Shown piece after piece: positions 1 through 40,729 of a stretch of 41,377 bases of DNA (its first letter is position 1; each line of letters begins with the position of its first letter). A model generated the notes under the pieces. That model did no database searches, was not told where the DNA came from, and was given only the letters and a program-made list of their open reading frames with translations. The translations under genes were made by a program, and so were the position numbers. The stretch is from Ignavibacteriota bacterium (GTDB taxonomy: Bacteria > Bacteroidota > Ignavibacteria > UBA10030 > UBA6906), in the NCBI GenBank assembly GCA_003158475.1, contig PMJR01000059.1, positions 1 to 41,377 on the forward strand, in the 5' to 3' direction.

Positions 1-891
1 CCGGAGATGCTGAAGGGGATCGACGTGCTCGTCTACGACATACAGGATATCGGGTGCAGGTCGTATACGTTCATAAGCACGATGGGGCTCGCGATGGAAG
101 CGGCCGCTGAGAACAAGATCCCGTTCGTCGTTCTCGACAGGCCGAACCCGCTCGGAGGGTTGAGGCTGGAGGGGAACCCGGTGGAAAAGGGGTTTGAGTC
201 GTTCGTCAGCCAGTATCCCGTTCCCTATGTCTACGGCCTCACATGCGGAGAGCTCGCCAGGTACCTGAATGATGAGGGTCTGCTTGCAGGCGGAGTCCGG
301 TGCTCACTCACCGTCATACCGATGAAGGGGTGGAAACGGAGTATGGCATTTACTGAAACCGGTCTCCCCTGGGTACCCACATCACCGCATATCCCGGAGG
401 CCCACTCTCCCGAATATTATGTGTGCTCGGGGATTATGGGGGAGCTGGGGGTTATTTCAGAGGGAGTCGGGTATACCGTCCCGTTCCAGATGTTCGCGGC
501 CGAGTGGATCGACCCGAAAATGATCGCCGACAAATTGAACCAGCTGGGACTTCCCGGCGTTTTGTTCCGGCCGACCATGTTCAATCCGTTCTACGGGAAG
601 TTCAAGGACAAGGAGCTGCATGGGGTACAGGTGCATATCGCACATTCTTCGCCTGTGAACCTGATGAGCATACAGTTTTTCTTCATGCAGGTCAATAACG
701 AACTCTACCCGGAGAAGAACCCTTTTGCGCTGGCTGATCCGGGGCGGCTCAAATCCTTCGACAGAGTTGCGGGGAGCGACAGCGTGAGACTTCTCTTTAC
801 CAAACGGATGATGTACGAGGATGTGAAACCGTTCCTGGAGAAAGGCCTGGACGGATTCAAAGAAAAAGCGAAAAAGTATATGCTCTACTGA
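1..891 (+). CDS. namZ: Exo-beta-N-acetylmuramidase NamZ-like (DUF1343), 5' end cut by window edge
   Basis: The reading frame is open from base 1 (Pro-Glu-Met...) to TGA at 889-891, giving 296 residues; family members are about 400 or more, so the N-terminal part lies outside. Family signatures are visible: 'DVLVYDIQDIGCRSYT' near the left edge, 'VLDRPNPLGG', and 'TGLPWVPTSPHIPEAHSPE'. NamZ enzymes remove terminal MurNAc from the non-reducing end of peptidoglycan fragments, in the periplasm or outside the cell. This copy has 'TSPHIP' and 'SEGVGYTVPF' where, from memory, characterised members have 'PSPN' and 'GRGTDTPF', so it belongs to a divergent branch and substrate use may differ. It lies on the strand opposite to the large muropeptide cluster but fits the same pathway. 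Its stop overlaps the convergent gene's stop by 7 bp. The family call is sure; the enzymatic activity is inferred. Confidence 0.88.
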   Translation, partial: PEMLKGIDVLVYDIQDIGCRSYTFISTMGLAMEAAAENKIPFVVLDRPNPLGGLRLEGNPVEKGFESFVSQYPVPYVYGLTCGELARYLNDEGLLAGGVRCSLTVIPMKGWKRSMAFTETGLPWVPTSPHIPEAHSPEYYVCSGIMGELGVISEGVGYTVPFQMFAAEWIDPKMIADKLNQLGLPGVLFRPTMFNPFYGKFKDKELHGVQVHIAHSSPVNLMSIQFFFMQVNNELYPEKNPFALADPGRLKSFDRVAGSDSVRLLFTKRMMYEDVKPFLEKGLDGFKEKAKKYMLY

Positions 892-4458: not shown

Positions 4459-6744
4459 TCAATAGCTTATTTTTCCGGTTCCGTCCTGTTCCTTCCGCCA
4501 ACCGGGGGAGGTGTGGACGTCGCATTTTCCCGGGCGGGTCTTGTCGGTGAAGTACTCGAGTGTCCTGTCCGGGCAGTAGGGCGTGGCGAGTTTCTTTGTC
4601 ACCGTACAGATCGAGTCGGCGTACACATTTGCCGGGCGCTCAAAATCCTCCAGGGGCATGGCAATCGATGGATCGTCATAGACGTACCTCATGAAGCGGC
4701 CCCATACGGGGGCGGCCGCCCTCCCCCCCTGCCCGTCCCAGGTAGTAAAATGGACGCTGGGTTCGTCAAACCCCATCCAGACCGCGGCAGAGATCTGCGG
4801 GGTGTACCCCACGAACCATGCATCCGCAAAACCCGTCGTCGTCCCGGTCTTTCCCGCCGCAGGTAACTGGAAATAGTCGCGCACACGGCCGCCTGTACCT
4901 CCATTGACGACCCCTTCCAGCATGGATGTCATGATGAAGGCGGTCGCGTCGCTGAGGGTCTCCTGACGAGTGGGAGAGTTCTCTTCCAGGACGTTGCCGT
5001 CCTTGTCTTCGACGCGGACAATCGAAAACGGCTCGACGCGGACTCCTTTGTCCGCAAAGACACTGAACGCCGCGGCCATTTCGAGCGGCGAGACATCGCC
5101 GACTCCGAGCGAGAGTGATGCAACAGCCGGGAGGGGGGAGGTGATGCCCATCCGCTTTGCGTAACCGATCACCTGGTCGACGGGAGCAATTTCAAGTATC
5201 GCACGGACGGCGACGAGGTTGATGGAGTGCTTGATCGCCTCGCGAATGGTGCTCTTCCCCCCGAACGACCCGTCGAAATTGGAGGGCGTCCAGCGTTTCC
5301 CGTCCGGCATCATAACCGTGACCGGCTGGTTGAGGAGCTCGTACACCGGGGAATAGCCGTTGTCTATCGCGACCGTGTACACGAATGGCTTGAATGCGGA
5401 GCCCACCTGGCGCCGTATCTGCGTGACGTGGTTTATCCCGTACCTGAACGTCTTGAAATTCGCGCCGCCGACCATCGCCAGGATCTCTCCGGTCTTCACA
5501 TCGAGCGCCACAAAACCGGTTTCGATGGACGAGGCGACACGCCTGACGGAATCCTCGAAAGCTTTGTTCCTCAGGAGCTGCCTCCTGATGGTATCCCGCT
5601 CGTCGGCTGTCACCGCCGTGCGGAAAAGGGGTGACGCGATGATGGCCTGATCGAGAACGCGCGCCGCCGCTTCATGCTGCTTCGACCAGTCCCATTGCTT
5701 GTTGAAAAGCTTCTGGTACGTTGCAAGATGTTCTTCGACGGCGCGGTTGGCGTGCCGCTGCATGCGGCTGTCGAGCGACGTGTACACCGAGAGCCCGTCC
5801 CGGTACAGGTCGAACCCGTACTTCTCCGCTTTCTTCGCCATCTGCTGGCGGACGTACTCGACAAAATGGGGCGCGATCCCCGCCACACCGGTCTCATCCG
5901 GCGGGCGGACATGGAGTTTCTCCGCGGTCCCCTCTTTTGCCTGCACACGGGTAATGAAGTTGTACTTGAGCATCTGGGCGATGACCGTGTTCCGTCTCTG
6001 GAGAACCCGCTCCGGATGATTTCCGGTGGGATCGTAGTAGCCGGGGCCCTTCAGGAGCGCGATCAGCGTGGCGGTCTCGCCGAGCGAGAGCCCGGCGGGC
6101 ATCTTGCCGAAGTAGATCTGGGAGGCCGAGGCGATCCCGTACGAACCATGTCCGAAATAGACGACGTTCAGATAGAACTCGAGTATCTCATCCTTCGTGA
6201 ACGTCCGCTCGAGTTCCATCGAGGTGAGGAACTCCCGGATTTTGCGCGTGACCGTGTCGAACACGTTCCTGTCGTTGCGACCGAGGTAGAGGTTCCGCGC
6301 GAGTTGCTGGGTGATCGTGCTGGCCCCTTCCTTCAGGCGCAAAGCGAACATGTTTTTTATCATCGCCTTGCCGAACCGGACAAGGTCGACCCCCCAGTGG
6401 CCGTAGAAATCTTTGTCCTCGGTGGCGATCAGGGCGTTGATCACTGCGGGGGGGATTTCGGAGAGGGGGAGATGAGTCCTGTTTTTTACGAAGAACTCGC
6501 CCAGGACCTCGCCGTCCGCCGCAATGACCCTCGTGGCGAGCTCGGGCCGCGGATTCTCTATGCGCGCCAGGGACGGGAGACCCGAGAGGAGAAAAATGAA
6601 GTAGGCGCCGGCGAGGAGAAGAAGGAGGAGGACCGCGGCCGCGATGACCTGCATCCTGCGTGAGAACCCGGCACGGAACCGGCTCCTCAGCCGCCGGCAG
6701 AGGGTCCTGTTGAAATACCTCGAAGGAGGAAGATCGGGCGTCAT
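4459..6744 (-). CDS. mrcA: Class A penicillin-binding protein, PBP1A family (transglycosylase and transpeptidase)
   Basis: A 761-residue bifunctional peptidoglycan synthase. There is a short basic cytoplasmic tail, one membrane helix at about 33-54, a GT51 glycosyltransferase domain at about 80-265 with catalytic Glu109 in 'ATEDKDFYGHWG' and 'GASTITQQLARNLYLG' at 140-155, then a transpeptidase domain with Ser449-x-x-Lys452 (GSAFKP), Ser507-Ile-Asn509 and Lys632-Thr-Gly. All catalytic motifs are intact. It polymerises lipid II and cross-links stem peptides on the periplasmic face. Its start codon overlaps the stop of the RND pump gene (ATGA, 6741-6744), so translation is probably coupled to pump synthesis, an unusual partner for a PBP. 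Confidence 0.95.
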   Translation of the reverse strand: MTPDLPPSRYFNRTLCRRLRSRFRAGFSRRMQVIAAAVLLLLLLAGAYFIFLLSGLPSLARIENPRPELATRVIAADGEVLGEFFVKNRTHLPLSEIPPAVINALIATEDKDFYGHWGVDLVRFGKAMIKNMFALRLKEGASTITQQLARNLYLGRNDRNVFDTVTRKIREFLTSMELERTFTKDEILEFYLNVVYFGHGSYGIASASQIYFGKMPAGLSLGETATLIALLKGPGYYDPTGNHPERVLQRRNTVIAQMLKYNFITRVQAKEGTAEKLHVRPPDETGVAGIAPHFVEYVRQQMAKKAEKYGFDLYRDGLSVYTSLDSRMQRHANRAVEEHLATYQKLFNKQWDWSKQHEAAARVLDQAIIASPLFRTAVTADERDTIRRQLLRNKAFEDSVRRVASSIETGFVALDVKTGEILAMVGGANFKTFRYGINHVTQIRRQVGSAFKPFVYTVAIDNGYSPVYELLNQPVTVMMPDGKRWTPSNFDGSFGGKSTIREAIKHSINLVAVRAILEIAPVDQVIGYAKRMGITSPLPAVASLSLGVGDVSPLEMAAAFSVFADKGVRVEPFSIVRVEDKDGNVLEENSPTRQETLSDATAFIMTSMLEGVVNGGTGGRVRDYFQLPAAGKTGTTTGFADAWFVGYTPQISAAVWMGFDEPSVHFTTWDGQGGRAAAPVWGRFMRYVYDDPSIAMPLEDFERPANVYADSICTVTKKLATPYCPDRTLEYFTDKTRPGKCDVHTSPGWRKEQDGTGKISY

Positions 6745-11053: not shown

Positions 11054-11746
11054 TCAGCATCTGCATTCCTTGACGAGTGCATCCACGTGTATCCGGGCGG
11101 GATCAATGCATGCAATATCCATATCCTTATGCGAGAGGATAAGCGGGAGCTCCGTGCAGCCGAGTATCACGCCTTCAACGCCAGCAGCTTTCCTGATCCG
11201 TCTGATGATCGCGAGCAGCTCCTTTCGCGATTTGTCCTTGATAATGCCGAGTTCTATCTCTTTAAAGAGGATGTGCTGGATCCGTTCGATCTCCTCGGGT
11301 TCCGGCGTAGTGAGACGCATGTTATATTTGTCAAACTCCTCCTGATAGTAGTCCGATGTCATTGTAAACCTGGTGCCAAGAAGGCAGAGTGAGCGGACAT
11401 TCAGCGTCCGGGCAAAATCACATGTCGCCTTCACGATGCTCAGGAGCGGAAGGCCGGTCTTTGCCTGTATGGCGTCAAACACCGCGTGCGGGGTGTTGGA
11501 AGCCATGGCACCAACATCCGCCCCGCACCGCCTGAGATGTTCACACCGGATGGAGATAAGCTGAATGATCGCTTCCCATTTACCGGCTTCGACGAGGGTG
11601 GTGAAATTGTTCAGGTCAAGGCTATCGATGACGATTTCGGGGAAACCGGTCTGTTCATATGACTCCCTGAACGACGCGATGATATTCCTGTAGTACTCGA
11701 GTGTCGATTCAGGGCCGAGGCCCCCGATGAGCCCGATCTTCTTCAT
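11054..11746 (-). CDS. Aspartate/glutamate racemase-family protein lacking the first catalytic cysteine
   Basis: A 230-residue protein with the fold signatures of the Asp/Glu/hydantoin racemase superfamily: 'MKKIGLIGGLGPESTLEYYR' at the N-terminus, 'LLGTRFTM' at 123-130 and 'GVILGCTELPLI' near 192-203. The second catalytic cysteine is present (Cys197). At the place of the first, where PLP-independent two-base racemases have 'CNT' (or 'CTNT' in the YgeA branch), this protein has Met-Ala-Ser83-Asn-Thr-Pro-His and no cysteine. It may therefore be a one-cysteine variant, a Ser/Cys racemase or a relative with another reaction. It is the last gene of the muropeptide cluster, 51 bp after DUF4922, so handling of D-Glu or D-Asp from stem peptides is a reasonable but unproved role. 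Confidence 0.82.
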   Translation of the reverse strand: MKKIGLIGGLGPESTLEYYRNIIASFRESYEQTGFPEIVIDSLDLNNFTTLVEAGKWEAIIQLISIRCEHLRRCGADVGAMASNTPHAVFDAIQAKTGLPLLSIVKATCDFARTLNVRSLCLLGTRFTMTSDYYQEEFDKYNMRLTTPEPEEIERIQHILFKEIELGIIKDKSRKELLAIIRRIRKAAGVEGVILGCTELPLILSHKDMDIACIDPARIHVDALVKECRC

Positions 11747-11797: not shown

Positions 11798-12817
11798 TCA
11801 GCGGGTTGTGAGGTTGCGGGAGAGATGCGCACAGGCCTTTTGAAACATCCCGGCGGAAAGGAAGATCTCCCCGAATATCTCGCGAATACGATCTGCCGTG
11901 AGGCGTTGAAAGTCCTTTTCAAGAGGGGTGGTGAGGACACCGCCACAGTCCACCGCCGCCGGACTGATGAGAATCCTCTCGTCCCCCTGCGCAAAATACA
12001 TGGACGGCCTGTGCTTCGCCCGGGGAAAAATCAACACGGTCCAGGTACCCCGGTCGAACGATGCGAGGATGTTCATCATGGGTTCCTCCTTGTCCCCCGT
12101 AGCCTCCGCGAACGCCGACTCCACAACACGGAGGGCCCCGATGAGGGATTCCCGCTCTCCGGACCTGAGCACGATGTGCCGCCGGAGCCCGGCGTCCACC
12201 GCGACAACCTGCATCGTCTTCGTGTCGGCGAGAACCTCCCCTCCGGCCACAAGACGGGTGATCTCCTTTTCCAGAGGGAGGAATCCTTTTTCGCCCGCCT
12301 GGAAATGGAGATGGTCGGGCGCGGAGGCGCCGCTCTTCGGGCCGTTATACGTCAGCATGTACCGTTTCTGCATCGCGTGTGCCAGGTCGAGCATCGTTCC
12401 GAACGAGGAACCGATCCGCTGCATCGTGTGGGTCGTGTGCGGAATCGTGAAATGCTCCTCGAATATCGGAAACGGGTTGCACAGGACAATGTAGCTGCTG
12501 GCGAAGAGTATTCCCCGCTGCTCCGCGAGAAGATTCGCCGGACAAAGGAAACACTTCCTCCGGCGGATCGATTCATCGTCCACCCTTGCCGATGACGAGA
12601 CGATGCGGGCGGGGTTCCACTGGACGCGGATCGTGAAGCCGTCCATGGCTATCGTCCGGGTCCGGACCTCCGCCAGTCCGGCGTACCCGGCTCGCAGGAG
12701 CGGCCATGTTTCCTTCTGCTGCCTGAGAAGGATATGCGCGCGGGCCGCGAGATCACTTCCGTCACGGAGATGGATCTCGCGGTCCGACAGGAGCAGGCGC
12801 TGGATTGATGGTTCCAT
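11798..12817 (-). CDS. DUF4922 protein, HIT/GalT-like putative nucleotidyltransferase or phosphorylase
   Basis: A 339-residue protein that I recognise as DUF4922. Seen: Cys89-x2-Cys92 in 'RKCFLCP', which could bind zinc; 'LCNPFPIFEEHFTIPH' at 112-127, like the 'NPFP...H' segment of GalT and ATP adenylyltransferases; then 'SGASAPDHLHFQAG' at 162-175, with His169-x-His171-x-Gln173 matching the HIT-superfamily active-site pattern. This is the arrangement of enzymes that move a nucleotide between a sugar phosphate and phosphate, such as GalT, Ap4A phosphorylase and GDP-L-galactose phosphorylase. No signal peptide, so cytoplasmic. It follows the double glycosyltransferase by 53 bp within the muropeptide cluster. 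I infer a nucleotidyl-transfer or phosphorolysis step on an amino-sugar phosphate; no member's activity is known to me. Confidence 0.85.
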   Translation of the reverse strand: MEPSIQRLLLSDREIHLRDGSDLAARAHILLRQQKETWPLLRAGYAGLAEVRTRTIAMDGFTIRVQWNPARIVSSSARVDDESIRRRKCFLCPANLLAEQRGILFASSYIVLCNPFPIFEEHFTIPHTTHTMQRIGSSFGTMLDLAHAMQKRYMLTYNGPKSGASAPDHLHFQAGEKGFLPLEKEITRLVAGGEVLADTKTMQVVAVDAGLRRHIVLRSGERESLIGALRVVESAFAEATGDKEEPMMNILASFDRGTWTVLIFPRAKHRPSMYFAQGDERILISPAAVDCGGVLTTPLEKDFQRLTADRIREIFGEIFLSAGMFQKACAHLSRNLTTR

Positions 12818-12870
12818 ACCGGCACATCAACAAGTGAGAAGAGTGGACGGTTCGGGGGAAGATGGTCGGA

Positions 12871-14400
12871 TCATTTCGTGCTCATGTGCTGACGGGCGCG
12901 GATCTCGATCGTGCGTGCTTTGTCCTTGTACCAGTTGTTCAGGTTCACATTCGCTATTCCGGGATCCGCGTCCGAGTTCCCCTCCCACCTTCGACACAGG
13001 TATATCGGCTCGTAGATCCGGCCGATACGGTACCGGCGCGACACCGAAAGTCCGACCGCGTAGTCCTCGCCATAGCTCACATTCGGGAACTTCACATGCC
13101 TCAGCACCGGCGTGAAGAATGCCCTCGGGGCGCCGAATCCGTTAACGCGGAGCGCGTTGTTCGGCCCGTTGTCGGGCGTCCATTCCCTGTGATCGATGAC
13201 GCCGGGGGGGATCTCACGGAGCTTCAGGTCGGTCGTGCGGTATGTCCCGACCACCATTGCGCACCGGTCCTTCAGGAACCGGTCGACGATCCGGCTCAAC
13301 GTCGATTCGTCGAGATACAGGTCGTCGCTGTCCAGCTGCGCCGCAAACCGGCCGCAGGATGGATGTTGCACGGCTTCATTCCAGCATCCGCCGATTCCCA
13401 GGTCCGTCCTTGAAGGAATGAGGTGCACGAGTCGCGAGTCGCGCATCGCAAACGTCCGGAGTATGTCTGTCGTTTCGTCCGTTGAATGATTGTCGACCAC
13501 GATGACGTTGAACGGGAACGAGGTTTGCTGGCGCAAGGCGGACGCCACCGCATCGCCGATCGTGTTGCCCCTGTCCCGGACAGGGATGATGATCGACGCG
13601 GTGACGGGGAATTGTCCCTCATTCAGATCCACGGAAGCCCGGACCGGCTTCAACCATGCGCCTATTTTCTTCAAATGGTGCGTGGCGGCCTTCTCCATCT
13701 CAATCTGGGCTGCACGGTTGCTTTGATCGAGATAATCGAAGAGCTTCTCACCCTGATTCCAGATTTCCGGACGGATGTCTGGCCGGATGCCCGGCAAGGT
13801 GACCGGTTCACTCTTCGTGTAGAGTGTCTCGGCGATCCGGAAAATTCCTCTCTTCCGCGCAATGGCAAGCCTGAGTGCGTAAAAGCCGGCATGGCGGTAG
13901 TTGTCGATCTCCTTTGCCGCCCCCTTAAGCGCGGAGGACTCCAGGGCGACGACCGAGCCGAAATCAAAGTCGTCCCGGATGCTCCCCTCCTGGTAGTCAA
14001 TCACGGGGTGAGGGACCGGGGAATTGCCTTTCGACTCCCGATGATCGCTGTAGACCATCCCCTCTCCTGTGGCACCGGCGACCGAAGCAATCCGTTCCAG
14101 GGCAAACTGGCCGAATTCGATCGCCACGTCACGGAGAACCAGGAGGGCGTACGGCGTTGTGGTCTTCGCCGCGATCTTCTTCATTGTCGAGCCCGCGGCG
14201 AGCGACTGCACACGGAGGGGGAAGCAGCCTTTGAAAGTGACAGGTGTGTTCTCCGGGGTGAGAAGGTAGATCTTCCCCACCATTCCGGAGCCCGCGAGCT
14301 GGGCGACTGTCCACTCCGTGCCGGGGTTGCCGCCGTAAGGAACGAATGCAGTGAACTGTGCTCTTTGTACTCCGGTTGTCTGGTACCCTGGCCGTTTCAT
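12871..14400 (-). CDS. Two-domain glycosyltransferase (degenerate GT-A domain followed by GT2)
   Basis: A 509-residue protein with no signal peptide or membrane helix. The start at 14400 has AAGGA 6 bases upstream, and the upstream AmpG-like gene ends 10 bp before it. The C-terminal half (about 266-480) is a clear GT2 domain: '[14 protein letters not shown]', '[10 protein letters not shown]', the metal-binding Asp357-Ser-Asp-Asp360 and Gly444-Glu-Asp446. The N-terminal half (about 10-200) also has a GT-A-like plan: '[16 protein letters not shown]' at 82-97 and 'VYSDHRE' at 116-122 where the DxD motif would sit, but the acidic motif is weak. It may be a tandem or bifunctional enzyme, or have a structural first domain. 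Between AmpG and DUF4922 it probably uses sugars recovered from the wall, but donor and acceptor are unknown. Confidence 0.83.
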
Positions 14401-14410
14401 AATGGTTCCT

Positions 14411-15688
14411 TCAGATTTTCCTCCCGAACTCTCTGTCAATCTTTATCAGCGCTGCCACGATAAACCCGGGAACCGTCGAGAGCATCACCCAGAGATAGAA
14501 TTTCGGATAGCCCAGCCATTCCTGGAGCGCTCCGCTGAACATTCCCGGAAGCATCATCCCGAGGGCCATGATCCCGGTGCAGATGGCATAGTGGGCCGTC
14601 CTGTGATCCCCCTCAGAGACCATGATCATGAAGAGCATGTACGCGGTGAACCCGAACCCGTAACCGAACTGTTCGATCGCCACGGCCGCGTTGATGACCA
14701 TGAAACTCGATGGCTGCACCTGGGAGAGATACACAAACATGAGGTCCGGCAGGTGCATGATGATGACCATCGGCCAGAGCCAGAACTTCAGCCCGCGCCG
14801 GGGGATCACAAAACCGCCGACAAGTCCCCCGAGCGTCAATGCGATGATCCCGACGGTCCCGTACGCGATACCGACTTCGCTCGTGGTGAGGCCGAGACCC
14901 CCTTTCATCCGGGGGTCAAGCAGGAACGGGGAGACGAGCTTGATCAGCTGCGATTCGGCAAACCGGTAGAGCAGGAGGAAGGCAAGGATCGAGGTGATGC
15001 GCGGTTTCCTGAAGAAGGCGGCAAAGACTTCAAAGAATTCCGCAACCGGGTTGCGCTCTTGCCCGCTGCGCACCGGCCGGTCCGCGGCGGGGAAGGGGAG
15101 CATGAACCTGTGATACACGCCGAAGACGATAAACATTGCGGCGAGTATGCCGAACGTCACCGACCAGGCAAGCACCGTGTTTCCGTTCGTGTTCGACTCG
15201 ATCATTCCTGCCACGATCACGAGAATGCCCTGCCCGGTCACCATCGCGATCCGGTAGAATGTGCTCCTGACCCCGACGAACGCCGCCTGCTCATGTTCCT
15301 TTAATCCCAGCATGTAAAACCCATCGGCGGCGATGTCATGCGTGGCGGAACTGAATGCCATGAGCCAGAAGACGGCCAGCGTGGCCCGGAAGAAGCCGGG
15401 CACGGGGATCGTGAGCGCGACCGAAGCAAGCGAGGCCCCGATGACAAGCTGGAGGAGGATGATCCAGAGTCTCTTTGTGCGGACAAGGTCGACGATCGGC
15501 CCCCAGAGCGGCTTGATGACCCAGGGGAAGTAGAGCCAGCTCGTATAAAGCGCAATATCAGCGTTCGATATGCCGAGGCGCTTGTACATGATGACCGAGA
15601 CAGTCATGACGACGACGTACGGGAGTCCTTCGGCAAAATAGAGGGACGGGATCCAGACCCACGGGTTGCGTCGTTCAGGTCGGTTCAT
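14411..15688 (-). CDS. ampG: AmpG-like muropeptide permease (MFS)
   Basis: A 425-residue polytopic membrane protein with about 12 predicted helices. The N-terminus '[20 protein letters not shown]' and the segment '[18 protein letters not shown]' match the AmpG / beta-lactamase-induction transporter branch of the major facilitator superfamily. AmpG proteins carry GlcNAc-anhydroMurNAc peptides or related disaccharides from periplasm to cytoplasm. The gene starts with an ATGA overlap on the GNAT gene and is followed 10 bp later by the double glycosyltransferase. Its position among an amidase, a SpoIID/LytB protein and an amino-sugar kinase strongly supports a wall-fragment importer. Exact substrate (anhydro or reducing-end muropeptide) cannot be read from the sequence. 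Confidence 0.88.
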
Positions 15689-16269
15689 GAGCCGGTTGTC
15701 ATATCGTCATTGAGATCCGGCGGAGAACCCGGCGGGGGGGTCCCCTGCGTGAGGAGCCTGAACCCGATGAAGTGCCTGACAGTCGTCTTTCCCATCGTGA
15801 ACGGGGCTTCTTCGACGAAGCTGAATCCGAGCGAATGATACCATGCGATCGTCGGCGAATTCTCCGACATGACGCCGAGCCAGACCCTGTCGTACTTCGC
15901 TTCGCGCGCCGCGCGGAAGGCCTCCTCCATGAGCATGGTACCGAGTCCGTATCCCTGGCACTCGGGGAGCACGTAGATGGAGGCGACGTGGCAGCGCCCG
16001 GCCTTTTCGTCGAACGACATGATCATGTACCCGACGGGCTTCCCCCTGAGGAGCGCCATACAGCCCCGCGTGGAGGCTCGATGGAAATTCCGGGTAAGCG
16101 CTTCGGTCGAGTAGTGCTCGTCGTGGTACGCACGCAGATCCTCTTCCGGAATGAACCTGCCGTACGTGGCCTTCCATGTCTCCCACCCGATCCGCCGGAC
16201 ATCGGGTATATCGCCGACGGTCCAGGGCCGGATGCCGGCCGGGAGAGGGGCGGGCACGTTTTCAGTCAT
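15685..16269 (-). CDS. GNAT-family N-acetyltransferase
   Basis: A 194-residue cytoplasmic protein with the GNAT fold. 'IRPWTVGDIPDVRRIGWETWKATYG' marks the N-terminal strand-helix unit, and the acetyl-CoA-binding motif A is 'SIYVLPECQGYGLGTMLMEEA' (Q/R-x-x-G-x-G/A pattern as QGYGLG). Motif B is 'SPTIAWYHSLGFSFVEE', typical of GNAT enzymes. It overlaps the amidase gene by 8 bp upstream and AmpG by 4 bp downstream, so it is surely part of the operon. A plausible role is acetylation of an amino sugar or amino acid released from peptidoglycan; general GNAT annotation allows many other substrates. Confidence 0.87.
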   Translation of the reverse strand: MTENVPAPLPAGIRPWTVGDIPDVRRIGWETWKATYGRFIPEEDLRAYHDEHYSTEALTRNFHRASTRGCMALLRGKPVGYMIMSFDEKAGRCHVASIYVLPECQGYGLGTMLMEEAFRAAREAKYDRVWLGVMSENSPTIAWYHSLGFSFVEEAPFTMGKTTVRHFIGFRLLTQGTPPPGSPPDLNDDMTTGS

Positions 16270-18052
16270 CGCATGAGGCGAGAAACTCCTCCACGCCGTC
16301 GATAATCCGTTCAGCGATCTTGTGCCGGAATTCCGGATCGGTCAGATTCATCTCATCGAGGGGATTGGAGACAAACGCCATCTCGACGAGCACGTTCGGG
16401 AGTTCCGTGGGAGCGTTCAGGGAAAAATTGAAGCTCCCGACGTTGCCGAACAGAGGGAGCCCGGTTTTGAGCAAGCTCCTGACTATCGCGAGCGCGAGCG
16501 GACGATAGCAAATGTGCTTGTAGAACGTCGCCGTGCCGCGCGTGTTCTCAGGATTGGTCGTGAGTCCGATCGAGTTGGAGTGGATGCTGATGAGCATATC
16601 CGCCCCCGAGGTAACAACCTTCCGGACCCGGTCGGCCATTGTAACATCGGCATCGCTGTCTCTTGTCAGGATGACCCGGGCGCCACGGTCTTCCAGCAGT
16701 GCCTTCAGCTCCTTCACTACTGCAAGATTTATCTCCTTTTCGAGCGCGCCGGTCGAGCCGAGGGCCCCCAGGTTTTCTCCGCCGTGGCCTGCATCGAGGG
16801 CGAACGTGAGTGCCTTGATCTTGAGCTTCTCTGGCTGGCGACGGACTTTGATCACGAGTCCCGAGGGGTTATAGCCGATCTCGTAGCCCCAGATCTGCTT
16901 GTGGCGGAGCTCGATCGTAATCCGGAAGACGCCCGTTGAAGGCTCAGTATAATACACGTTCCTGATCTCACGGGTCGTGAGCTGCTGTATGATCCAGTTG
17001 GTGTTCGAGGTCGCACCGTAGAGATCGATATGGATCCGCGACGGGTCGGACTCCGTGGTCGATGAATACGGGAGACGAAGCGGAATCCCGACGGTGACAT
17101 AATCGTATTTGTCGTCTCCGTATACCGTCCAGTTCTCCGTGAGGGCCGCGGGGAGTCGGGCTCCCCTCGGGATGAGGTCAACATTTGCCGCCGCGATCCA
17201 GGCTTCCTGTCCCGGCGACAGGGCAACGCGGTACTGGTTTCCGTGCTTTCCCGTGATTGCGAGTCGAATCCCCGAATTAATGAACGACATCTTGGCACCC
17301 CCGAGGCGATCTTCACCGAGACCGTAGGAAAGTGCAGGACGTTCTCCTTTCGTCACGCCGATGTACGGGAAGTCGCCGGGCCTCATGGTGACAGCCCCTT
17401 TCGAGGACGCCTCCACCGCCGCACCCGAAGGGCTCTCCAGGCGGAACCTGACCGGATGGGAAGAGAGCGTGTCACCGTCCTTCACGGTGTAGACGCCCCG
17501 GTAAATACCCCCCAGACCGTGCGCATAGTCGGGCTTGATCTCGGTCATCGGAATCCCCAGGTCACACGAGGCCTTGCCTCCGGGCGTCCCTTTGAATTGC
17601 ACCTCAAGACGGTCATCCTCGTTCAGCCAGAGCTCTGCGGAGGGCTCCGTCATGATCGTGTCTATGGTCAGGACGGAATCCGGCGTCGTCTCGGGCGGCT
17701 TTGCGCGGACGACCAGGAACGACTTCGAAACTGAATCTCCCTTCGGACCTGTCGCGGTGAGTGTAAAGCGGTTTTCGCCGACGTTCAGGTTGAGGAGACC
17801 TGCCGCGGCCCCGGAGGGATACACCTTCAGGGGTGAGCCGTTTATTGTGAGCTTGTTCCCCGGTGCCGTCCCGGCGGACAGCCGGTATGTGCCGGAGGAT
17901 GCCTGCACGGTGTCGGATTCAGGGACCACCAGGCGGACGAAATTGGGCCGGGCGGGGGCGGGCTGGGATGACAATGAGCCGGCGAGTATCAGGTTCACTG
18001 CGAACGGCAAAAGTGTTACCGTCAGGGACTTGTGGAGATGTGGGATTTTCAT
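16262..18052 (-). CDS. N-acetylmuramoyl-L-alanine amidase (Amidase_3) with long N-terminal region
   Basis: A 596-residue exported zinc amidase. The ATG at 18052 gives a signal peptide (MKIPHLHKSLTVTLLPFAVN...) and has TGAGG a few bases upstream; the longer open frame runs into the preceding gene. The catalytic domain occupies about 412-596 with zinc ligands and the general acid set His423 (LDAGHGG), Glu438 (LEKEINL), His491 (SIHSNS) and Glu557 (LVEMAFVSN), all intact. Residues 30-410 contain beta-rich modules: an Ig-like segment near 40-120, a segment with SH3-like spacing around 225-300, and an AMIN-like segment at about 310-405, which may hold it on the wall. It cleaves the MurNAc-L-Ala bond in the periplasm. 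It is followed by the GNAT gene with an 8-bp overlap. Confidence 0.92.
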   Translation of the reverse strand: MKIPHLHKSLTVTLLPFAVNLILAGSLSSQPAPARPNFVRLVVPESDTVQASSGTYRLSAGTAPGNKLTINGSPLKVYPSGAAAGLLNLNVGENRFTLTATGPKGDSVSKSFLVVRAKPPETTPDSVLTIDTIMTEPSAELWLNEDDRLEVQFKGTPGGKASCDLGIPMTEIKPDYAHGLGGIYRGVYTVKDGDTLSSHPVRFRLESPSGAAVEASSKGAVTMRPGDFPYIGVTKGERPALSYGLGEDRLGGAKMSFINSGIRLAITGKHGNQYRVALSPGQEAWIAAANVDLIPRGARLPAALTENWTVYGDDKYDYVTVGIPLRLPYSSTTESDPSRIHIDLYGATSNTNWIIQQLTTREIRNVYYTEPSTGVFRITIELRHKQIWGYEIGYNPSGLVIKVRRQPEKLKIKALTFALDAGHGGENLGALGSTGALEKEINLAVVKELKALLEDRGARVILTRDSDADVTMADRVRKVVTSGADMLISIHSNSIGLTTNPENTRGTATFYKHICYRPLALAIVRSLLKTGLPLFGNVGSFNFSLNAPTELPNVLVEMAFVSNPLDEMNLTDPEFRHKIAERIIDGVEEFLASCDD

Positions 18053-18101
18053 GCGAGCCTCATGAATTTGACGCAATGAATGAAAGAGCAATGACTCTCG
18101 G

Positions 18102-19451
18102 TCAGTAGAGTGTCGAGACCGACGTCCCGGGAAAATAATGAGACAGTATGGATTCAGGGGAGTAACCGCGATCCCCCATGACGGCCGCGCCGATCTGGCA
18201 GAGGCCGACCCCGTGCCCCCAGCCCGCCCCCGTGAGAACAAACCTCGAGGGGATAGTTCCCCTGATGTCCTCACTGTCGATGACGAACGCCGAGCTGTAG
18301 AGGTGCGACGGCGAAAGGGTCCGGCGGATCTCGAGCTCCTTCCCGATCGTGAGCGTCTTCTTTTCTCCCACAATCTTCAGGAGCGTGAGACGCCCCGAGG
18401 GACCGCGCTCAACCGGCGCCATATCAACGATTGCCCCGAAGTCGATGCCGGTCTTCTCGCGAATGAGCGCCGAGATGGATTCCTGCGTGTATTCAACTTT
18501 CCAGCGATAGAAATCCGCAGTCTCCTGGTCGTATGTGAGGAGGACCTGGGAGAGTATGCGGGTGTCCGCCGTGTTGCAGAATGCAGGGGGAGAGCTCCTG
18601 ATCCATCCCTCCGCCAGATTCTCCCTGCTGACGTCGGGACCCGCAAGAAAGTCAGGGAGACGCCCGGCGGCGGGGATATCCGCCCGGTTGACAAGGTACG
18701 GGATCTCAACGGGCTGCCACACGTTTCCAAACGGTTCGGTGATCCCGCCGCAGGACTTGGAGAACCGTGCGTCGCAGATACGGCCGTCGTACATGACCAC
18801 CTGTCCCCGCGTCTGCTCCACAGACTGCCTGACGGCGTCGGCAGACGATTTCGGGACCCCCTGGTAGCGCTGGCAATGGTCGTCGGCACACACGTCGTAG
18901 AGGTCGTGCTCCTCCCTGTCATACCAGCGGACCAGCCGGCCATGCGCCCTGGAAGTCGTCGGGTAACGCTTTCCCCCCGCTTTCAGCTCACCTGACCGTT
19001 CACGCTGCGCCAGGAGCCAGCTCCGTGATGTGATCGCGTGCGCCTTGAGGAGATTCGTGGAACTCGCAGCGCTCATCTCCGACGAGATGACGCTCGAAAG
19101 GTATTCTTCAACCGTGACGACATTGATCGCGACCACGTCACCCCCTTTCGCCACGAGACGGAGCGCGCCTGTGAAGCGTTGGTCTTCTTTCCGCTCCCAG
19201 TGAAACCCGATACCGATCGTCACTCCACGTATGACGAATGATGTCGTCCCGCGCACAGTCGGAGTCAGCAACACACCGGAAGCGTATACGGAACGCTTGC
19301 CGCCGCAGTCGATGAAGATGGAATTGCCGGAAACCGAAGCCCGCGCGGCCCCGCGAAGGGTCTCCTCCGATGCCGCGACATCAAACTCCCCTTCAAAGTC
19401 GACAACGGGTGCCGTGAGAACACCGACCGTGATCGTGGGTTCGGGGATCAT
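18102..19451 (-). CDS. SpoIID/LytB-domain protein without export signal
   Basis: A 449-residue protein of the SpoIID/LytB family, known for lytic transglycosylase activity on denuded glycan (SpoIID) or enhancement of the LytC amidase (LytB). Key family features are 'VVTVEEYLSSVISSEMSA' with the probable catalytic Glu125, 'LLKAHAITSRSWLL' at 134-147, 'CDARFSKSCGG' with its conserved cysteines, and the C-terminal 'GAGWGHGVGLCQIGA' plus 'YFPGTSVSTLY'. No signal peptide or membrane helix is seen: the protein starts 'MIPEPTITVGVLTAPVVDF'. This is odd for an enzyme expected to act on the wall, and suggests either cytoplasmic work on imported fragments or an unrecognised export route. It is 20 bp from the kinase gene and 49 bp from the amidase gene. 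Confidence 0.88.
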   Translation of the reverse strand: MIPEPTITVGVLTAPVVDFEGEFDVAASEETLRGAARASVSGNSIFIDCGGKRSVYASGVLLTPTVRGTTSFVIRGVTIGIGFHWERKEDQRFTGALRLVAKGGDVVAINVVTVEEYLSSVISSEMSAASSTNLLKAHAITSRSWLLAQRERSGELKAGGKRYPTTSRAHGRLVRWYDREEHDLYDVCADDHCQRYQGVPKSSADAVRQSVEQTRGQVVMYDGRICDARFSKSCGGITEPFGNVWQPVEIPYLVNRADIPAAGRLPDFLAGPDVSRENLAEGWIRSSPPAFCNTADTRILSQVLLTYDQETADFYRWKVEYTQESISALIREKTGIDFGAIVDMAPVERGPSGRLTLLKIVGEKKTLTIGKELEIRRTLSPSHLYSSAFVIDSEDIRGTIPSRFVLTGAGWGHGVGLCQIGAAVMGDRGYSPESILSHYFPGTSVSTLY

Positions 19452-19471: not shown

Positions 19472-20410
19472 TCAGTCCCCCTTCAGGCTGGCCATCGCCA
19501 GCAGCAGGGCACCGTGCGCCGGTCCGTTCAAAGGAGCCCGGAAGTCGACCGCGGGGGAGGATTTCCTGATCTCCGCGGCGAGCGTGCGCGCGTAAATTGT
19601 GTCGTGGTCGATGAGTCCGCCGATCATCACGATTCCCGTTCCCCCCTCCAAGCCGAGGCGGTTGACGGCCGTGACGACCTGGGGGGAAAACTCCCGGGCG
19701 GCGTGTGTGAGTATGCCGAGAGCGACCTGGTCCCCGGCTTCCGCGGCATCGAGAACGGCGGGCGCTATGGAGGGAATATCGAATTTCTCCCTGTAGATTG
19801 CGGCGATGATCCGTTCGCGTGTCTCGAGCCCGAACCGGGAGGAGATGGAAACACGCAGGCGGCCGGCCTCCCCCATGCCGTCGATCTCCCGCGAAACAGC
19901 TTTGAGGGCTTCCAGGCCTATGAAGTAACCGCTCCCTTCATCCCCGATCACTCTTCCCCACCCCCCGATCGAAAGCGTCTCACCGTCCGGGGACTTCCCC
20001 ATGACGACGGATCCTGTCCCGGCGACAACGACAATCCCCGCTCCACCGTCGAACGCCCCCTCCAGCGCGATGCGTCCGTCGGACTTGATGGAAATCGGGA
20101 GGGACGGAAGACCCATCGCACGGAGGCGGGCCTGTATCGCATCGATCAGGACCTGCCGGTCCCTCCCGGCCCCCGCCCCCGCAAGACCCAGCACCACGGA
20201 ACCGATCTCGGCAACAGGGCGATGGGCCGTCCGCGCAAGAGTCGCGATCAACTCGGCAAGATTCCGCGCGGCGTTGTCGATCCCGATGACATTCTGGTTC
20301 GATCCGTCCCCCCGGCCGCGGGCAAGGACCGTGCCGCGGCTATCGGCGAGGAGACCCAGGGTTTTCGACCCGCCGCCATCGGCACCGAGTACAAGCGTTT
20401 GCTGTGCCAT
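19472..20410 (-). CDS. BadF/BadG-type amino-sugar kinase (GlcNAc or MurNAc kinase, MurK-like)
   Basis: A 312-residue ASKHA-fold kinase. The phosphate-1 loop is 'GADGGGSKT' (9-17); 'VVVAGTGSVVMG' and 'GGWGRVIGDEGSGYFIG' are the typical phosphate-2 and substrate-loop motifs of the BadF/BadG/BcrA/BcrD ATPase family branch that holds eukaryotic-type GlcNAc kinases and bacterial MurK. Such kinases phosphorylate free GlcNAc and/or MurNAc, usually at C6, in the cytoplasm. Its start overlaps the stop of the T9SS-protein gene by one base (TAATG), and the SpoIID gene follows after 20 bp. No MurQ etherase is present in this window, so the next step after phosphorylation must be encoded elsewhere or is served by DUF4922. 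Confidence 0.88.
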   Translation of the reverse strand: MAQQTLVLGADGGGSKTLGLLADSRGTVLARGRGDGSNQNVIGIDNAARNLAELIATLARTAHRPVAEIGSVVLGLAGAGAGRDRQVLIDAIQARLRAMGLPSLPISIKSDGRIALEGAFDGGAGIVVVAGTGSVVMGKSPDGETLSIGGWGRVIGDEGSGYFIGLEALKAVSREIDGMGEAGRLRVSISSRFGLETRERIIAAIYREKFDIPSIAPAVLDAAEAGDQVALGILTHAAREFSPQVVTAVNRLGLEGGTGIVMIGGLIDHDTIYARTLAAEIRKSSPAVDFRAPLNGPAHGALLLAMASLKGD

Positions 20411-22712: not shown

Positions 22713-23726
22713 TTAGAGTTTCCTCGCGCCGATGCCGGGTCCCCCGGTCAACGTGACTTTGCCGTCGACGATCGAGGCACCCGAGAACAGGTCGTTGCGT
22801 ATCAGCAGCGCGCCGTCAAGGTCCGCGTAGTCCGCCAGCGGTGAGAGCTGGGCCGCGGCCGAGATGGCGCAGGATGTCTCCGTCATGCACCCGATCATGA
22901 CCTTCATGCCGAGTGCCCGGGCGGTCGCGATCATCTTGTATGCCTCGCTCATCCCGGTGGATTTCATCAACTTGACGTTGATACCGTCGAACACACCTAT
23001 CGACTTGCGTATGTCGGCGAGGCGCACCACGCTTTCGTCCCCGAAGATGGGGAGCGGGCTTTTTGCGCGGAGCCATGCGGTGTCATCCGGTTGATCTTTC
23101 GGCATCGGCTGCTCCACGATCTCCACTCCCCGTGTCGCGAGCCATTCGATCATCCGGAGAGCGAACTCCCGGTCCTTCCATCCCTGGTTCACGTCCACGC
23201 GGACCGGCTTGTCCGTGACCTCGCGGATCGTCTCGATCATCTCTTTGTCGTTTTCGCGACCCAGTTTTACCTTGAGGACCTTGTAGATCGCCGCCTCATT
23301 CACCTTTCTCCTGACGACCTCCTTCGTGTCGATGCCGATGGTGAACGTGGTAACGGGAGTTTTCGACGGATCGAGCCCCCAGATCCTGTACCAGGGGTAG
23401 CCCATCTTCTTCCCCAGCCAGTCGTGGAGCGCAATGTCGACGGCGGCCTTCGCGGCATTGTTCCCGGGCGCGATCGAGTCAACATCACCGAGTATGTCCT
23501 CGATGCGGAACAGGTCGGGATATTTCGCGAGATCGACCTTTGCCAGAAACGCCGTCGCGGTCGCCTGAGTCTCGCCGAGGTAAGGCGGCATCGAGGCCTC
23601 ACCGTACCCGGTGATCCCGTCCTCTTCCACCTCCACCATCATGGCAGCCGTCGCCGTCCGGGAACTCGTGGCAAGTGTGAAGGCGTGCTTCAGCTCCAGC
23701 GTGAAGGGATAGAATCTGAGTCTCAT
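22713..23726 (-). CDS. L-Ala-D/L-Glu epimerase (dipeptide epimerase, enolase superfamily)
   Basis: A 337-residue cytoplasmic enzyme of the muconate-lactonising subgroup. The ATG at 23726 (AGGGG upstream) gives the usual N-terminus 'MRLRFYPFTLELKHAFTLAT'. Catalytic Lys152-x-Lys154 (LKVKLG), metal ligands Asp178 (DVNQGW), Glu205 (VEQP) and Asp230 (GDES), and Lys252 (NVKL) are all present. The 'ADLDG' segment (Asp302-x-Asp304) matches the dipeptide-binding 'DxD' of L-Ala-D/L-Glu epimerases. The reaction converts L-Ala-D-Glu from peptidoglycan stem peptides to L-Ala-L-Glu, which ordinary peptidases can use. It follows a truncated symporter remnant; the 87-bp gap there is where the deletion ends. 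Confidence 0.9.
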   Translation of the reverse strand: MRLRFYPFTLELKHAFTLATSSRTATAAMMVEVEEDGITGYGEASMPPYLGETQATATAFLAKVDLAKYPDLFRIEDILGDVDSIAPGNNAAKAAVDIALHDWLGKKMGYPWYRIWGLDPSKTPVTTFTIGIDTKEVVRRKVNEAAIYKVLKVKLGRENDKEMIETIREVTDKPVRVDVNQGWKDREFALRMIEWLATRGVEIVEQPMPKDQPDDTAWLRAKSPLPIFGDESVVRLADIRKSIGVFDGINVKLMKSTGMSEAYKMIATARALGMKVMIGCMTETSCAISAAAQLSPLADYADLDGALLIRNDLFSGASIVDGKVTLTGGPGIGARKL

Positions 23727-23813
23727 GGGGTTCCCCTGGACGAAGTCCCCCCCTTTGGAGGCAAGGAACTCCAAACACGATGATGTCCGGAGAAATGTAC
23801 CTATTTTTCCTGA

Positions 23814-32517: not shown

Positions 32518-35500
32518 CTATTTTCCCACACGGAGGCGTCCGCCGCCGCTTGCGGAACGGTAGTCGGCGTTGTACATCGCCTCCGCGACGACAGGCGCAT
32601 ACTGGAAATTCCCCTGCGTGACCGCGCGGACGGCATAGTAGAACTGCATCTGCCGGCGGCCGCCCCTGATCGCCGTGTACAGGTTGATCCGGTCGTCGCG
32701 GATGTCCATGTAATCTGCGCTCGCCGGGTTCCTGATGAAAGCATAGTTCGTGGCCTCCGTGATGCGAGGGTTCTCGAGCTCGAATCCTCCCGGGAGGAGG
32801 TCGGTAATCGCGATGTTGTCCAGGTCGTTGACCGACGACGTCAGCGTGATCCGCACGACGATGAGATCGTTCTGTTTGATCCCGCCGGGATTGACCGGGT
32901 TCCCGTTCCGGTCGAGGAGTTCGCGGCGTACCTGGAGGTTCTTATCTTCGATCTTCACCGCACCGTCAGAACGGATCCCTTCGGTCACGAGGGAGTAATA
33001 GATTCTCCCCTCCCCTTTCATCGCGATCGTCACTTTCTTGCCGAAAGGCTCGATGTCCATCCTCCGGTTCCCCCCTTTGTACGCATACTCCTTTCCACCG
33101 ACCGAGACATTTCCCTCGACCTTTGTCGCGGTCGCCATGCGGGCGGCCTTCCCGAAGGCAAGGAGCGTGAACGCGTCATCCTGGGTGCTGCACCACCAGT
33201 CGTTGTGGTAGTGGGTCGAAAGGTATTCCATGAGGCGCGGAATGTTCGGGTTGTTCAGGTCCGTCTCAAGGAGTATGTTCAGCATGAGCGCATTCGCCCT
33301 GATCGGCGAATCGAAATTCCATCCGGATTCGCGGACCGCCTCTTCGACGGAGAATTGCGACGGAAGGATCTCGCCATAGACGGCCCGGTCGCCTGCAAGC
33401 GCGTACGCGCCGGCAAGAAGATATTTCGTGTCTGTCGTCAGGAGACCCTTTTCGCCCCGGTAGAAGTCCATGACCGGTTTCTCCGGCGCCCCGCCGATCG
33501 CCAGGACATACAGGGCGTAGATCGTGCTCTTGTCGGCGATCCGGGTCACCGTTATCTGGTTGTTGCCGTGGGAATAGTAGTCCTCCGTGAGCTTGCTCCG
33601 GGCGATCCCGGCAACAGCGCCCAGAGCCGATTTCAGCGTCGCTTCGGGAACCGCAAACCCGGCCTTCCGCGCTTCGAGAAGGAAGTGCGTGGCATAGACC
33701 GTCGACCAGCGGTTCGAGGATGTCCCCCCGGGCCAGTACGAAAAAGTCCCGTCGTACAGCTGCATCGAGGTCACCTTCGTGATGGCCTCGTTCACAAAAT
33801 AGACCGGGCTCCCTGTGTTGAGCGTCGAGGGAGCGAGAATCACGGCGATGTCGCGGAGATAGATCTGGGGGAACGCCTTCGAGACGGTCTGTTCAAGGCA
33901 ACCGTGCGGATAGCCGATCAGGTACGCCAGCTCCTTCGCAAAATTCGCCACAGGGTACGGGCTGAGGGTCAGGTACGCCCTGCGCCCGTACGAGAGGTAC
34001 GCATCCGGGATGTCATGGGAAACGGTTTTCCCCCCGTCCACCACCCCCGTGACGGCGTCCGACGAAAAGGGGGCTGCGGGACGCACCGGCAGCTCGGTCG
34101 TCGATTCGAGTGTCTCGCCGAACGCTTCGGTCCGCACACTGACCGTGCCCTTGCCCACCTGATTGGATCCACGGAGCGGAATGTTCGTGAACCGTTCCTG
34201 GTTGGGACCGACGTCCAGAGATGCGCTTTTCGACACCGCGGCAACCGGCCCGTCGGTCCGGACGGCAAACTGGAGAGTGACGGCCTTCCCGGTAGTGTTG
34301 AATGCCGTGAGGGGCATGATGATCGAATCGCCGGGGCTGAGGAACCTGGGGAGCGCCGGCGTGATCACGACGGGATCAGAGACCTTCATGGGGATCTGGG
34401 CGGAGCCGAACCGGTCCCCCTTGTAGGCCAGAGCCATGAGACGGAGCTCGCCGTTGAATTCGGGGACATCGAGCGTGACCTCCGCCTCGCCGCTCCCGTT
34501 GGTCTTCAGTATCCCCGACCAGAGCGCGAGCGGCTTGAACCTCTGGACGCCGAGCGGGTTCGCGCGCTTTGCCAGCTCCGCGTCGCTTCCCCCGGTGGTG
34601 CTCGCCTTCGTTTGCTTCGCCTCCGGGATCAGGTGTTTGAAGAAATCAAACGTCTCCGTCTCGAGCGTCTTCCGCGCATAGAAATAGCCGTACGGGTCGG
34701 GGGTCTTGTAGTTCTTCACCTGGCAGATCCCCTCGTCAACCGCTGCGAGCGTGACATACACGTTCTTTTCGTTTCCTGCAACGACCGTGACTTTCTGCTT
34801 TCCGCGGGGGCGGATCTTCTCGGGCGCCCTGATGGCGACCTCGAACCGGTTCGATTTCCTTTCGACAAAGAGGGGGGCAAAGCCGTGCCCTGCCAGGAGC
34901 GGGATGTCCTCATCCCTGATCCTGCGGAAGAGGACGGCGGCGACGTACGCGTTGGGGAGGAACTTCTCGTCGACCGCCAGATCCATCGAGGCGGCGTTGT
35001 TCACCACGTCGAGGTACCTGTAACTGAACTCCCTGTTCCTTTCGACAGTCACGAGCATCCTCCCGCTGAACGGCGTCTGGAAGAGCACCCGTGCCTTCTC
35101 CCCGGGGGCATACACAGGCTTGTCGAAGACGATGTCCACGCGTGCCTCCGGGTTCACCTCAAACGACGTCACATCGGACGTCCCCCAGCTGTAGGAATAG
35201 AAGGAGAACTGGTTGTACCCCGTTCCTCCTTCCTTCGACACGCGGACGACATAGTCGCCCGAGCGGGAAGTCATGTACGTGTAGTCGTAGGAGCTGTCCC
35301 GCAGCTTGAGGTGATCGGTTCTCTCGACTATCTCGATCCGCTCCGAGACGTAGCGAAGCGTGTTCGTCCCTTCGTGCTGGCGGAGGACCGAGTGCCATTC
35401 ATGGCGGATCAGTTCAATTTTTGCGGCAAAACCCGCGATCGGTTTATCGCCAGGATCGACCGCAACGATCTGGAGTTGCTGAGGCGTGTTCGGACTGACG

Positions 35501-40286: not shown

Positions 40287-40729
40287 AGGGGCAAAAGAGG
40301 GATCGCGGAGTAGTCCAGGCGCCATGGAACAATGCCGCGCGGCGGGAATGCGCGGGTGGAAGCAGTGTGGAGTGAATATAGAGAAGCGCGCGTGTGAAGT
40401 CAAGAAGATGAACGAGGCGCCATCCTCCTCATCCTCTTTAAGGCTTGCGTTTGAAATCACGCGAAGTTAAATTCCCTTGCGCTCAGTGTTCTTTGAGAGG
40501 ACCTCTTTATACCCATCAGCCCAAACGGGGAAGAAGAGGTCTTCGCTGTTTGTCGGATATCCAGTCGCTGAAGTGCTGTCACCAACGGGTTGCTTCATCT
40601 GCGAAAGAGCGGACCACCGGAACATTCGCCGGGGCGCGATAGTACAATTGATATCAACCCACATCGACCTGCAGAATGTGCGTCCCCCTTTTGATCATGC
40701 TCCATCACTTCACAAATGACAGGAGTACC
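40287..40729. other. Divergent intergenic region between pbpC and the small-membrane-protein operon
   Basis: This 443-bp stretch has no convincing gene. Open frames of 65-80 codons occur on both strands but have no ribosome-binding site, no signal peptide or membrane helix, and no family motif that I recognise. An imperfect inverted repeat lies at 40497-40544, and a 10-bp perfect palindrome TTGATATCAA at 40648-40657 might be an operator-like site. It should contain the promoters of pbpC (minus) and of the gene at 40730 (plus). No clear promoter boxes can be assigned. Confidence 0.4.
40497..40544. repeat. Inverted repeat (hairpin) in the pbpC divergent region
   Basis: Left arm GAGGACCTCTT (40497-40507) pairs with right arm AAGAGGTCTTC (40534-40544) over 11 bp with a single G-T pair. 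The 26-base spacer is unpaired or weakly paired. No T tract follows in either direction, so it is more likely an operator or RNA structure than a terminator. Confidence 0.55.

Follow-up and report, generated by a model that had tools for sequence, protein, structure and literature searches.

The window, a stretch of 41,377 nucleotides from an Ignavibacteriota bacterium (contig PMJR01000059.1), carries on its reverse strand genes in the order AmpG, GT2x2, DUF4922, where GT2x2 is our name for a protein with tandem glycosyltransferase halves (Table 1). The AmpG gene ends 10 bp ahead of the GT2x2 start codon, an ATG giving a product of 509 residues (522 residues if begun at an upstream TTG), and 53 bp separate GT2x2 from the gene for the 339-residue DUF4922 protein. 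A check of the window's open reading frames thus returned the frames, the 53-bp gap and the placement of the 509-residue protein directly behind AmpG as they had been given in an initial annotation made from the sequence alone.

Table 1. Genes of the window considered here, in order of position.
Position	Strand	Protein	Remarks
7..891	+	NamZ exo-beta-N-acetylmuramidase	Truncated at its N-terminus by the end of the contig; on the other strand from the recycling cluster, same functional neighbourhood
4459..6744	-	Bifunctional transglycosylase/transpeptidase PBP	
11054..11746	-	Asp/Glu racemase-family protein	Possibly same operon; beside DUF4922 only in close relative L054
11798..12817	-	DUF4922 (PF16269), Apa2-like HIT nucleotidyltransferase/phosphorylase by sequence and fold	HxHxQ 169-173, CxxC 89-92
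12871..14400	-	GT2x2, tandem GT-A protein, C-terminal half GT2	ATG at 14400; DSDD 356-359, GED 443-445
14411..15688	-	AmpG-type muropeptide/disaccharide MFS permease	TIGR00901-like
15685..16269	-	GNAT acetyltransferase	Recurs as a neighbour at L041, L047, L050 and L051, ordered as in the window
16262..18373	-	Amidase_3 N-acetylmuramoyl-L-alanine amidase, exported	Start probably downstream, at MKIPHLHKSL
18102..19451	-	SpoIID-domain protein without signal peptide	Glu125 aligned to catalytic Glu101 of C. difficile SpoIID
19472..20410	-	BadF-family MurNAc/GlcNAc kinase, frequent neighbour	Closest PDB entry 8zo3 (MurNAc/GlcNAc kinase), E 9e-35
22713..23774	-	L-Ala-D/L-Glu epimerase-like protein (stem-peptide recycling)	DgcA/YcjG type
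32518..37953		Bacterial alpha-2-macroglobulin	Adjoins the PBP1C-like protein
37977..40460	-	Bifunctional transglycosylase/transpeptidase PBP	PBP1C-like

The closest relatives with a name are Ignavibacteriae MAGs that bear the label 'fen'. Recurrent neighbours of the GT2x2-DUF4922 pair in relatives were an SpoIID-domain protein, AmpG, a NagK/MurK-type kinase, GH3, NamZ, an amidase, an epimerase, MurQ and NlpC/P60. This company supports the wall-sugar salvage setting that had been proposed for the pair, and a strict tie to non-wall loci did not occur in the neighbourhoods of other genomes. GT2x2 and DUF4922 lay no more than 2.2 kb apart in 22 of 28 genomes of the same class; given this proximity and the near-perfect co-occurrence described below, the arrangement of the two genes with AmpG is far beyond chance. 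The epimerase in the cluster suggests stem-peptide recycling alongside sugar salvage, and the L113 locus additionally encodes a YkfC-like NlpC/P60 peptidase. As candidate members of the module, the racemase and the RND genes were ruled out by the neighbourhoods in relatives.

The DUF4922 protein matched PF16269 with 191 bits (E 1.2e-56), against a gathering cut-off of 23.6. Its motifs H169-L-H171-F-Q173 and C89-F-L-C92, both pointed out in the initial annotation, are conserved in an alignment of 30 relatives from Ignavibacteria and Bacteroidales (33-86% identity): H169, H171, C89 and C92 were invariant and Q173 was kept in at least 90%, with N114, P115, H122, H130, N158, G159, R266 and R270 as further unchanged positions. 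HxHxQ is a sign of the transferase/phosphorylase branch of the HIT superfamily, as opposed to HIT hydrolases. A single-sequence phmmer search of the PDB gave no match for DUF4922, and the yeast Ap4A phosphorylase Apa2 surfaced only with the family profile, as its only close relative in the PDB; in the profile match HxHxQ aligned to DHKHLQ of Apa2 and H171 to its nucleophile histidine. The predicted model (pLDDT 90.5) superposed on Apa2 (4i5t/4i5v/4i5w) with Z 22.2 over 269 residues, compared with 9.8 for ADP-glucose phosphorylase and 8.6-8.8 for GalT. VTC2/GGP and GalT share the HIT transferase branch with DUF4922, GalT being a much poorer fit than Apa2 (Z ~8.7), and some plant proteins of the GDP-L-galactose phosphorylase family carry a DUF4922 superfamily annotation. 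On the basis of the predicted HIT-type fold and HxHxQ, DUF4922 is assigned to the transferase branch of the superfamily (GalT/Apa2/GGP), in keeping with the nucleotidyl-transfer pocket first suggested for it; the comparison of folds that had been proposed at the same time puts it far nearer to Apa2 than to GalT, with a HIT pocket present.

On these grounds DUF4922 could be a phosphorylase of dinucleoside polyphosphates (Ap4A type) with a part in signalling or nucleotide housekeeping, linked to wall salvage by co-regulation only. Apa2 is by far its closest solved fold (Z 22.2 versus ~9 for GalT and ADP-glucose phosphorylase) and the PDB contains no other close HMM match, but an identity of ~15% says little about the substrate, and the fusions to SpoIID and to the glycosyltransferase, together with the strict co-occurrence with AmpG (see below), call for one related to sugars. 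We consider such a housekeeping role very unlikely; in contrast to the close fold, the partners and the likely substrate of DUF4922 differ from those of Apa2.

In GT2x2, Pfam recognised the C-terminal half only (PF00535, E 1e-20). The predicted model (pLDDT 87.4) consists of two GT-A-like halves, bearing out the tandem GT-A partner of the initial annotation. The C-terminal half carries invariant DSDD and GED motifs (numbered in Table 1 as in alignment A2), matched many GT2 enzymes with Z ~20 and has the DxD and ED motifs of glycosyltransferase family 2, which holds for this half only; mainly the C-terminal half is likewise taken in by the VIA rows for GT2x2. There was no match to an NTP_transferase family, and all Pfam and NCBIfam matches with E up to 0.01 were to glycosyltransferase families. 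The earlier hint that GT2x2 might be a sugar nucleotidyltransferase has accordingly given way to GT2 matches: judged by its sequence, it is a glycosyltransferase and not a MurU-like nucleotidyltransferase. The model's best PDB match, which spans both halves, was the E. coli K4 chondroitin polymerase, whose domains are arranged differently (rmsd 21 over both halves). Like this enzyme and PmHS2, GT2x2 is a soluble GT2 protein that combines two GT-A halves; unlike them, it has a diverged N-terminal half, another domain arrangement and a wall-salvage context.

A third protein of the locus, which does not figure in the initial annotation, proved to be a near-obligate partner of the pair. The SpoIID-domain protein (PF08486, E 1.6e-22) retains the catalytic glutamate and an invariant DVCADDHCQR motif. 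Its N-termini begin M..EPxIxVGI and lack a signal-like hydrophobic stretch as judged by hydropathy, in contrast to the signal-like N-termini of the amidase, GH3 and NamZ proteins. It is therefore probably cytoplasmic. In rumen Bacteroidales and at L161, DUF4922 and SpoIID are fused, with SpoIID as the C-terminal part and no signal peptide, and at L163 GT2x2 and DUF4922 form a single protein of 826 residues. These fusions indicate that the three proteins most likely share one compartment, the cytoplasm. The protein has the SpoIID/LytB domain and catalytic glutamate in common with the SpoIID lytic transglycosylase of sporulating Firmicutes, from which it differs in the missing signal peptide, the lack of sporulation and the DUF4922 fusions. 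Many genomes of two families (L099-L110; L037, L046, L048 and L056) encode a GT4-family glycosyltransferase directly beside the signal-less SpoIID, which may be a further part of the module in those families. In some families SpoIID adjoins GT4 and housekeeping genes and not wall genes, which counts against a salvage reading.

The initial annotation had suggested an analysis of co-occurrence, and in two sets of genomes the pair tracked together and with AmpG. The first set, taken from the window's class, comprised 49 genomes, of which 28 had a full DUF4922 and 21 did not; G027, G136 and G160, with weak PF16269 matches in frames of 166-184 residues, were scored among the latter. GT2x2 was found in 27 of the 28 DUF4922 genomes and in none of the others, and the AmpG-type permease in 28/28 versus 3/21. 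The signal-less SpoIID, counted genome-wide in the window's class only, occurred in all 28 DUF4922 genomes and in 0/21 others. In 18 of the 28 genomes SpoIID is unlinked to DUF4922, yet it is always present, so linkage alone cannot explain its co-occurrence. For the second set, 119 genomes were drawn independently from the order to which a Bacteroidales MAG belongs. Of these, 26 contained DUF4922; all 26 encoded GT2x2 and AmpG, compared with 1 and 10, respectively, of the remaining 93. DUF4922, GT2x2 and SpoIID thus make up a putative module that is tied near-obligately to AmpG in two bacterial groups, even where the genes are unlinked. Against TIGR00901 the permease of the window scored 177 bits (E 5e-52), under the curated cut-off of 350 bits, and the same applies to all related genomes. 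Many module genomes (G019, G051, G062, G066, G070, G074, G148 and G188; in Bacteroidales, L145-L154) encode a long AmpG of ~600-640 residues, in which each of the two MFS halves gives its own match and an additional segment lies between them.

Among the Bacteroidales loci, L145 shows the order GT2x2, DUF4922, SpoIID, AmpG, NamZ, BadF kinase, MurQ. At L153 a Golvesin-domain protein lies just upstream of GT2x2; the Golvesin domain often gives rise to 'xanthan lyase' annotations. The ampG operon of Tannerella forsythia (Tanf_08345-08385) runs xanthan lyase, gtf, gtf, lytB, ampG, ybbC, murT, murK, murQ, and was described as encoding protein glycosylation in addition to enzymes of recycling (PMC5388701). 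From gtf to murQ its order corresponds to that of L145. The two gtf genes and lytB, the latter annotated as an amidase enhancer, have no assigned function in PMC5388701 and PMC7670621. Going by the matching order in L145 and the Golvesin protein upstream in L153, Tanf_08350, Tanf_08355 and Tanf_08360 are probably GT2x2, DUF4922 and SpoIID, an assignment made from gene order and annotation and not from sequence. AmpG of T. forsythia takes in GlcNAc-anhMurNAc and GlcNAc-MurNAc; growth is supported by GlcNAc-anhMurNAc and only poorly by anhMurNAc alone, the species has no predicted AnmK ortholog, and the processing of imported fragments is described by the authors as an open question (PMC7670621). 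The HIT nature of the second gtf, the missing signal peptide of lytB and the avoidance of AnmK are not described in these two reports.

That avoidance, likewise absent from the initial annotation, was apparent in both genome sets. The window's genome (97.85% complete) gave no match to AnmK (PF03702). In the window's class AnmK was present in 9 of the 28 module genomes versus 20 of the 21 module-less ones (Fisher 6e-6), and in the Bacteroidales draw in 3/26 versus 78/93 (Fisher 1e-11), values that overstate independence, as the class contrast lies mostly between families and phylogeny inflates its p-value. The 9 and 3 genomes just counted contain both the module and AnmK. The pattern might then be an accident of descent, in which lineages without AnmK happen to carry AmpG and a module with some other task. 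The split between families within the class is what such an account would expect; however, the same pattern recurs in the separate Bacteroidales set, AnmK is patchy inside module-bearing families, and the physiology of T. forsythia (PMC7670621) also speaks against it. We therefore hold an accident of descent to be unlikely and, from the repeat in Bacteroidales and the patchiness within families, argue that AnmK avoidance is real. Part of the pattern could be an effect of the presence of AmpG and not of the module itself.

MurQ is intact in the window's genome (E 3e-111) and occurs in 21 of 28 module genomes and 19 of 21 others of the class, so it does not track the module. For MurU the model cut-off was passed by no genome, control genomes included, and stand-alone matches of 100-145 bits were taken as MurU-like; such proteins, of 230-250 residues, occur alongside the module in several genomes, those lacking MurQ among them. 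The genomes in which no MurQ passed the cut-off (G009, G019, G031, G116, G124, G140, G188, G128 and G180) have a stand-alone MurU-like protein of ~230-260 residues, and the two routes look complementary in the window's class. These counts bear on the initial proposal, according to which DUF4922 and the glycosyltransferase replace AmgK/MurU or MurQ and make UDP-MurNAc from MurNAc-phosphate. A HIT transferase pocket in a recycling setting would suit this role, as would the window's genome itself, in which no MurU-like stand-alone protein was found. Replacement of MurQ is rejected in view of an intact MurQ that is uncorrelated with the module, and MurU-like proteins coexist with the module, as do AmgK and MurU in T. 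forsythia with its same operon order. The substitution as first framed is consequently quite unlikely; the wider interpretation is partly supported and is probably to be redirected to AnmK-independent processing of wall disaccharides imported by AmpG.

The module might instead build a glycan, with GT2x2 as a two-site polymerase or assembly glycosyltransferase of the chondroitin polymerase kind, DUF4922 supplying or repairing nucleotide sugars, SpoIID trimming the product and the AmpG link reflecting a shared sugar supply. The K4 chondroitin polymerase match over both halves of GT2x2, the GT4 gene that in many genomes adjoins SpoIID and the mention of protein glycosylation for the T. forsythia operon (PMC5388701) are compatible with such a role. 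The near-obligate tie to AmpG and the avoidance of AnmK are not readily accommodated by it, many neighbours are wall-salvage enzymes, and genes for a flippase, a polymerase or a lipid carrier were not seen to recur in the labelled neighbourhoods. On balance we judge glycan building rather unlikely.

Our preferred reading is that DUF4922, GT2x2 and the signal-less SpoIID probably form a cytoplasmic module that processes AmpG-imported GlcNAc-anhMurNAc and GlcNAc-MurNAc in place of the usual AnmK route. Taking the evidence as a whole, we lean towards an AnmK-replacing disaccharide-processing module as its best explanation. As in the AmpG-NagZ-AnmK recycling of E. coli and Pseudomonas (with MurQ or MupP-AmgK-MurU), GlcNAc-anhMurNAc would enter through AmpG and the sugars would reach the same end use; in contrast to that route, AnmK is mostly absent and SpoIID, a tandem glycosyltransferase and a HIT protein would serve as cytoplasmic enzymes. 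The physiology of T. forsythia suggests an enzyme that acts on the disaccharide rather than on anhMurNAc. Since an active site of the lytic transglycosylase type recognises anhydro ends, SpoIID is proposed to act at the anhydroMurNAc end of the disaccharide and to open the 1,6-anhydro ring with water or another acceptor, which would be lytic transglycosylase chemistry run backwards. GT2x2 would then shift GlcNAc between disaccharide and nucleotide, most economically as GlcNAc-MurNAc + UDP -> UDP-GlcNAc + MurNAc. An inverting GT2 enzyme working in reverse is energetically uphill and unusual. DUF4922 may form a nucleotidyl-His171 intermediate and exchange the nucleotide sugar with phosphate or a sugar-1-phosphate, a step that would regenerate the nucleotide and keep the energy of the glycosidic bond as sugar-1-P or NDP-sugar. 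If the glycosyltransferase were coupled to HIT phosphorolysis, the net reaction would be disaccharide + phosphate -> GlcNAc-1-P + MurNAc, near equilibrium like known disaccharide phosphorylases, and MurNAc would pass on to the MurK/NagK-type kinase and MurQ or to AmgK/MurU. We infer these steps, with their direction, nucleotide and order, from fold and setting, and the specific succession of SpoIID, GT2x2 and DUF4922 given here is doubtful.

The module accounts for the odd annotations found beside ampG (gtf, gtf, amidase enhancer). It also names three proteins to test for the handling of AmpG-imported fragments in bacteria that lack AnmK, the MurNAc auxotroph T. forsythia among them. If the proposal is true, enzymes of the lytic transglycosylase and Ap4A phosphorylase types would have an unexpected metabolic role. 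Only tentatively do we suggest that peptidoglycan recycling has a new branch in Ignavibacteria and Bacteroidales, in which SpoIID-type ring opening, a glycosyltransferase that runs towards salvage and a HIT phosphorylase resembling Apa2 would keep the bond energy without AnmK; should this chemistry hold, it would be an energy-saving alternative to kinase-based salvage.
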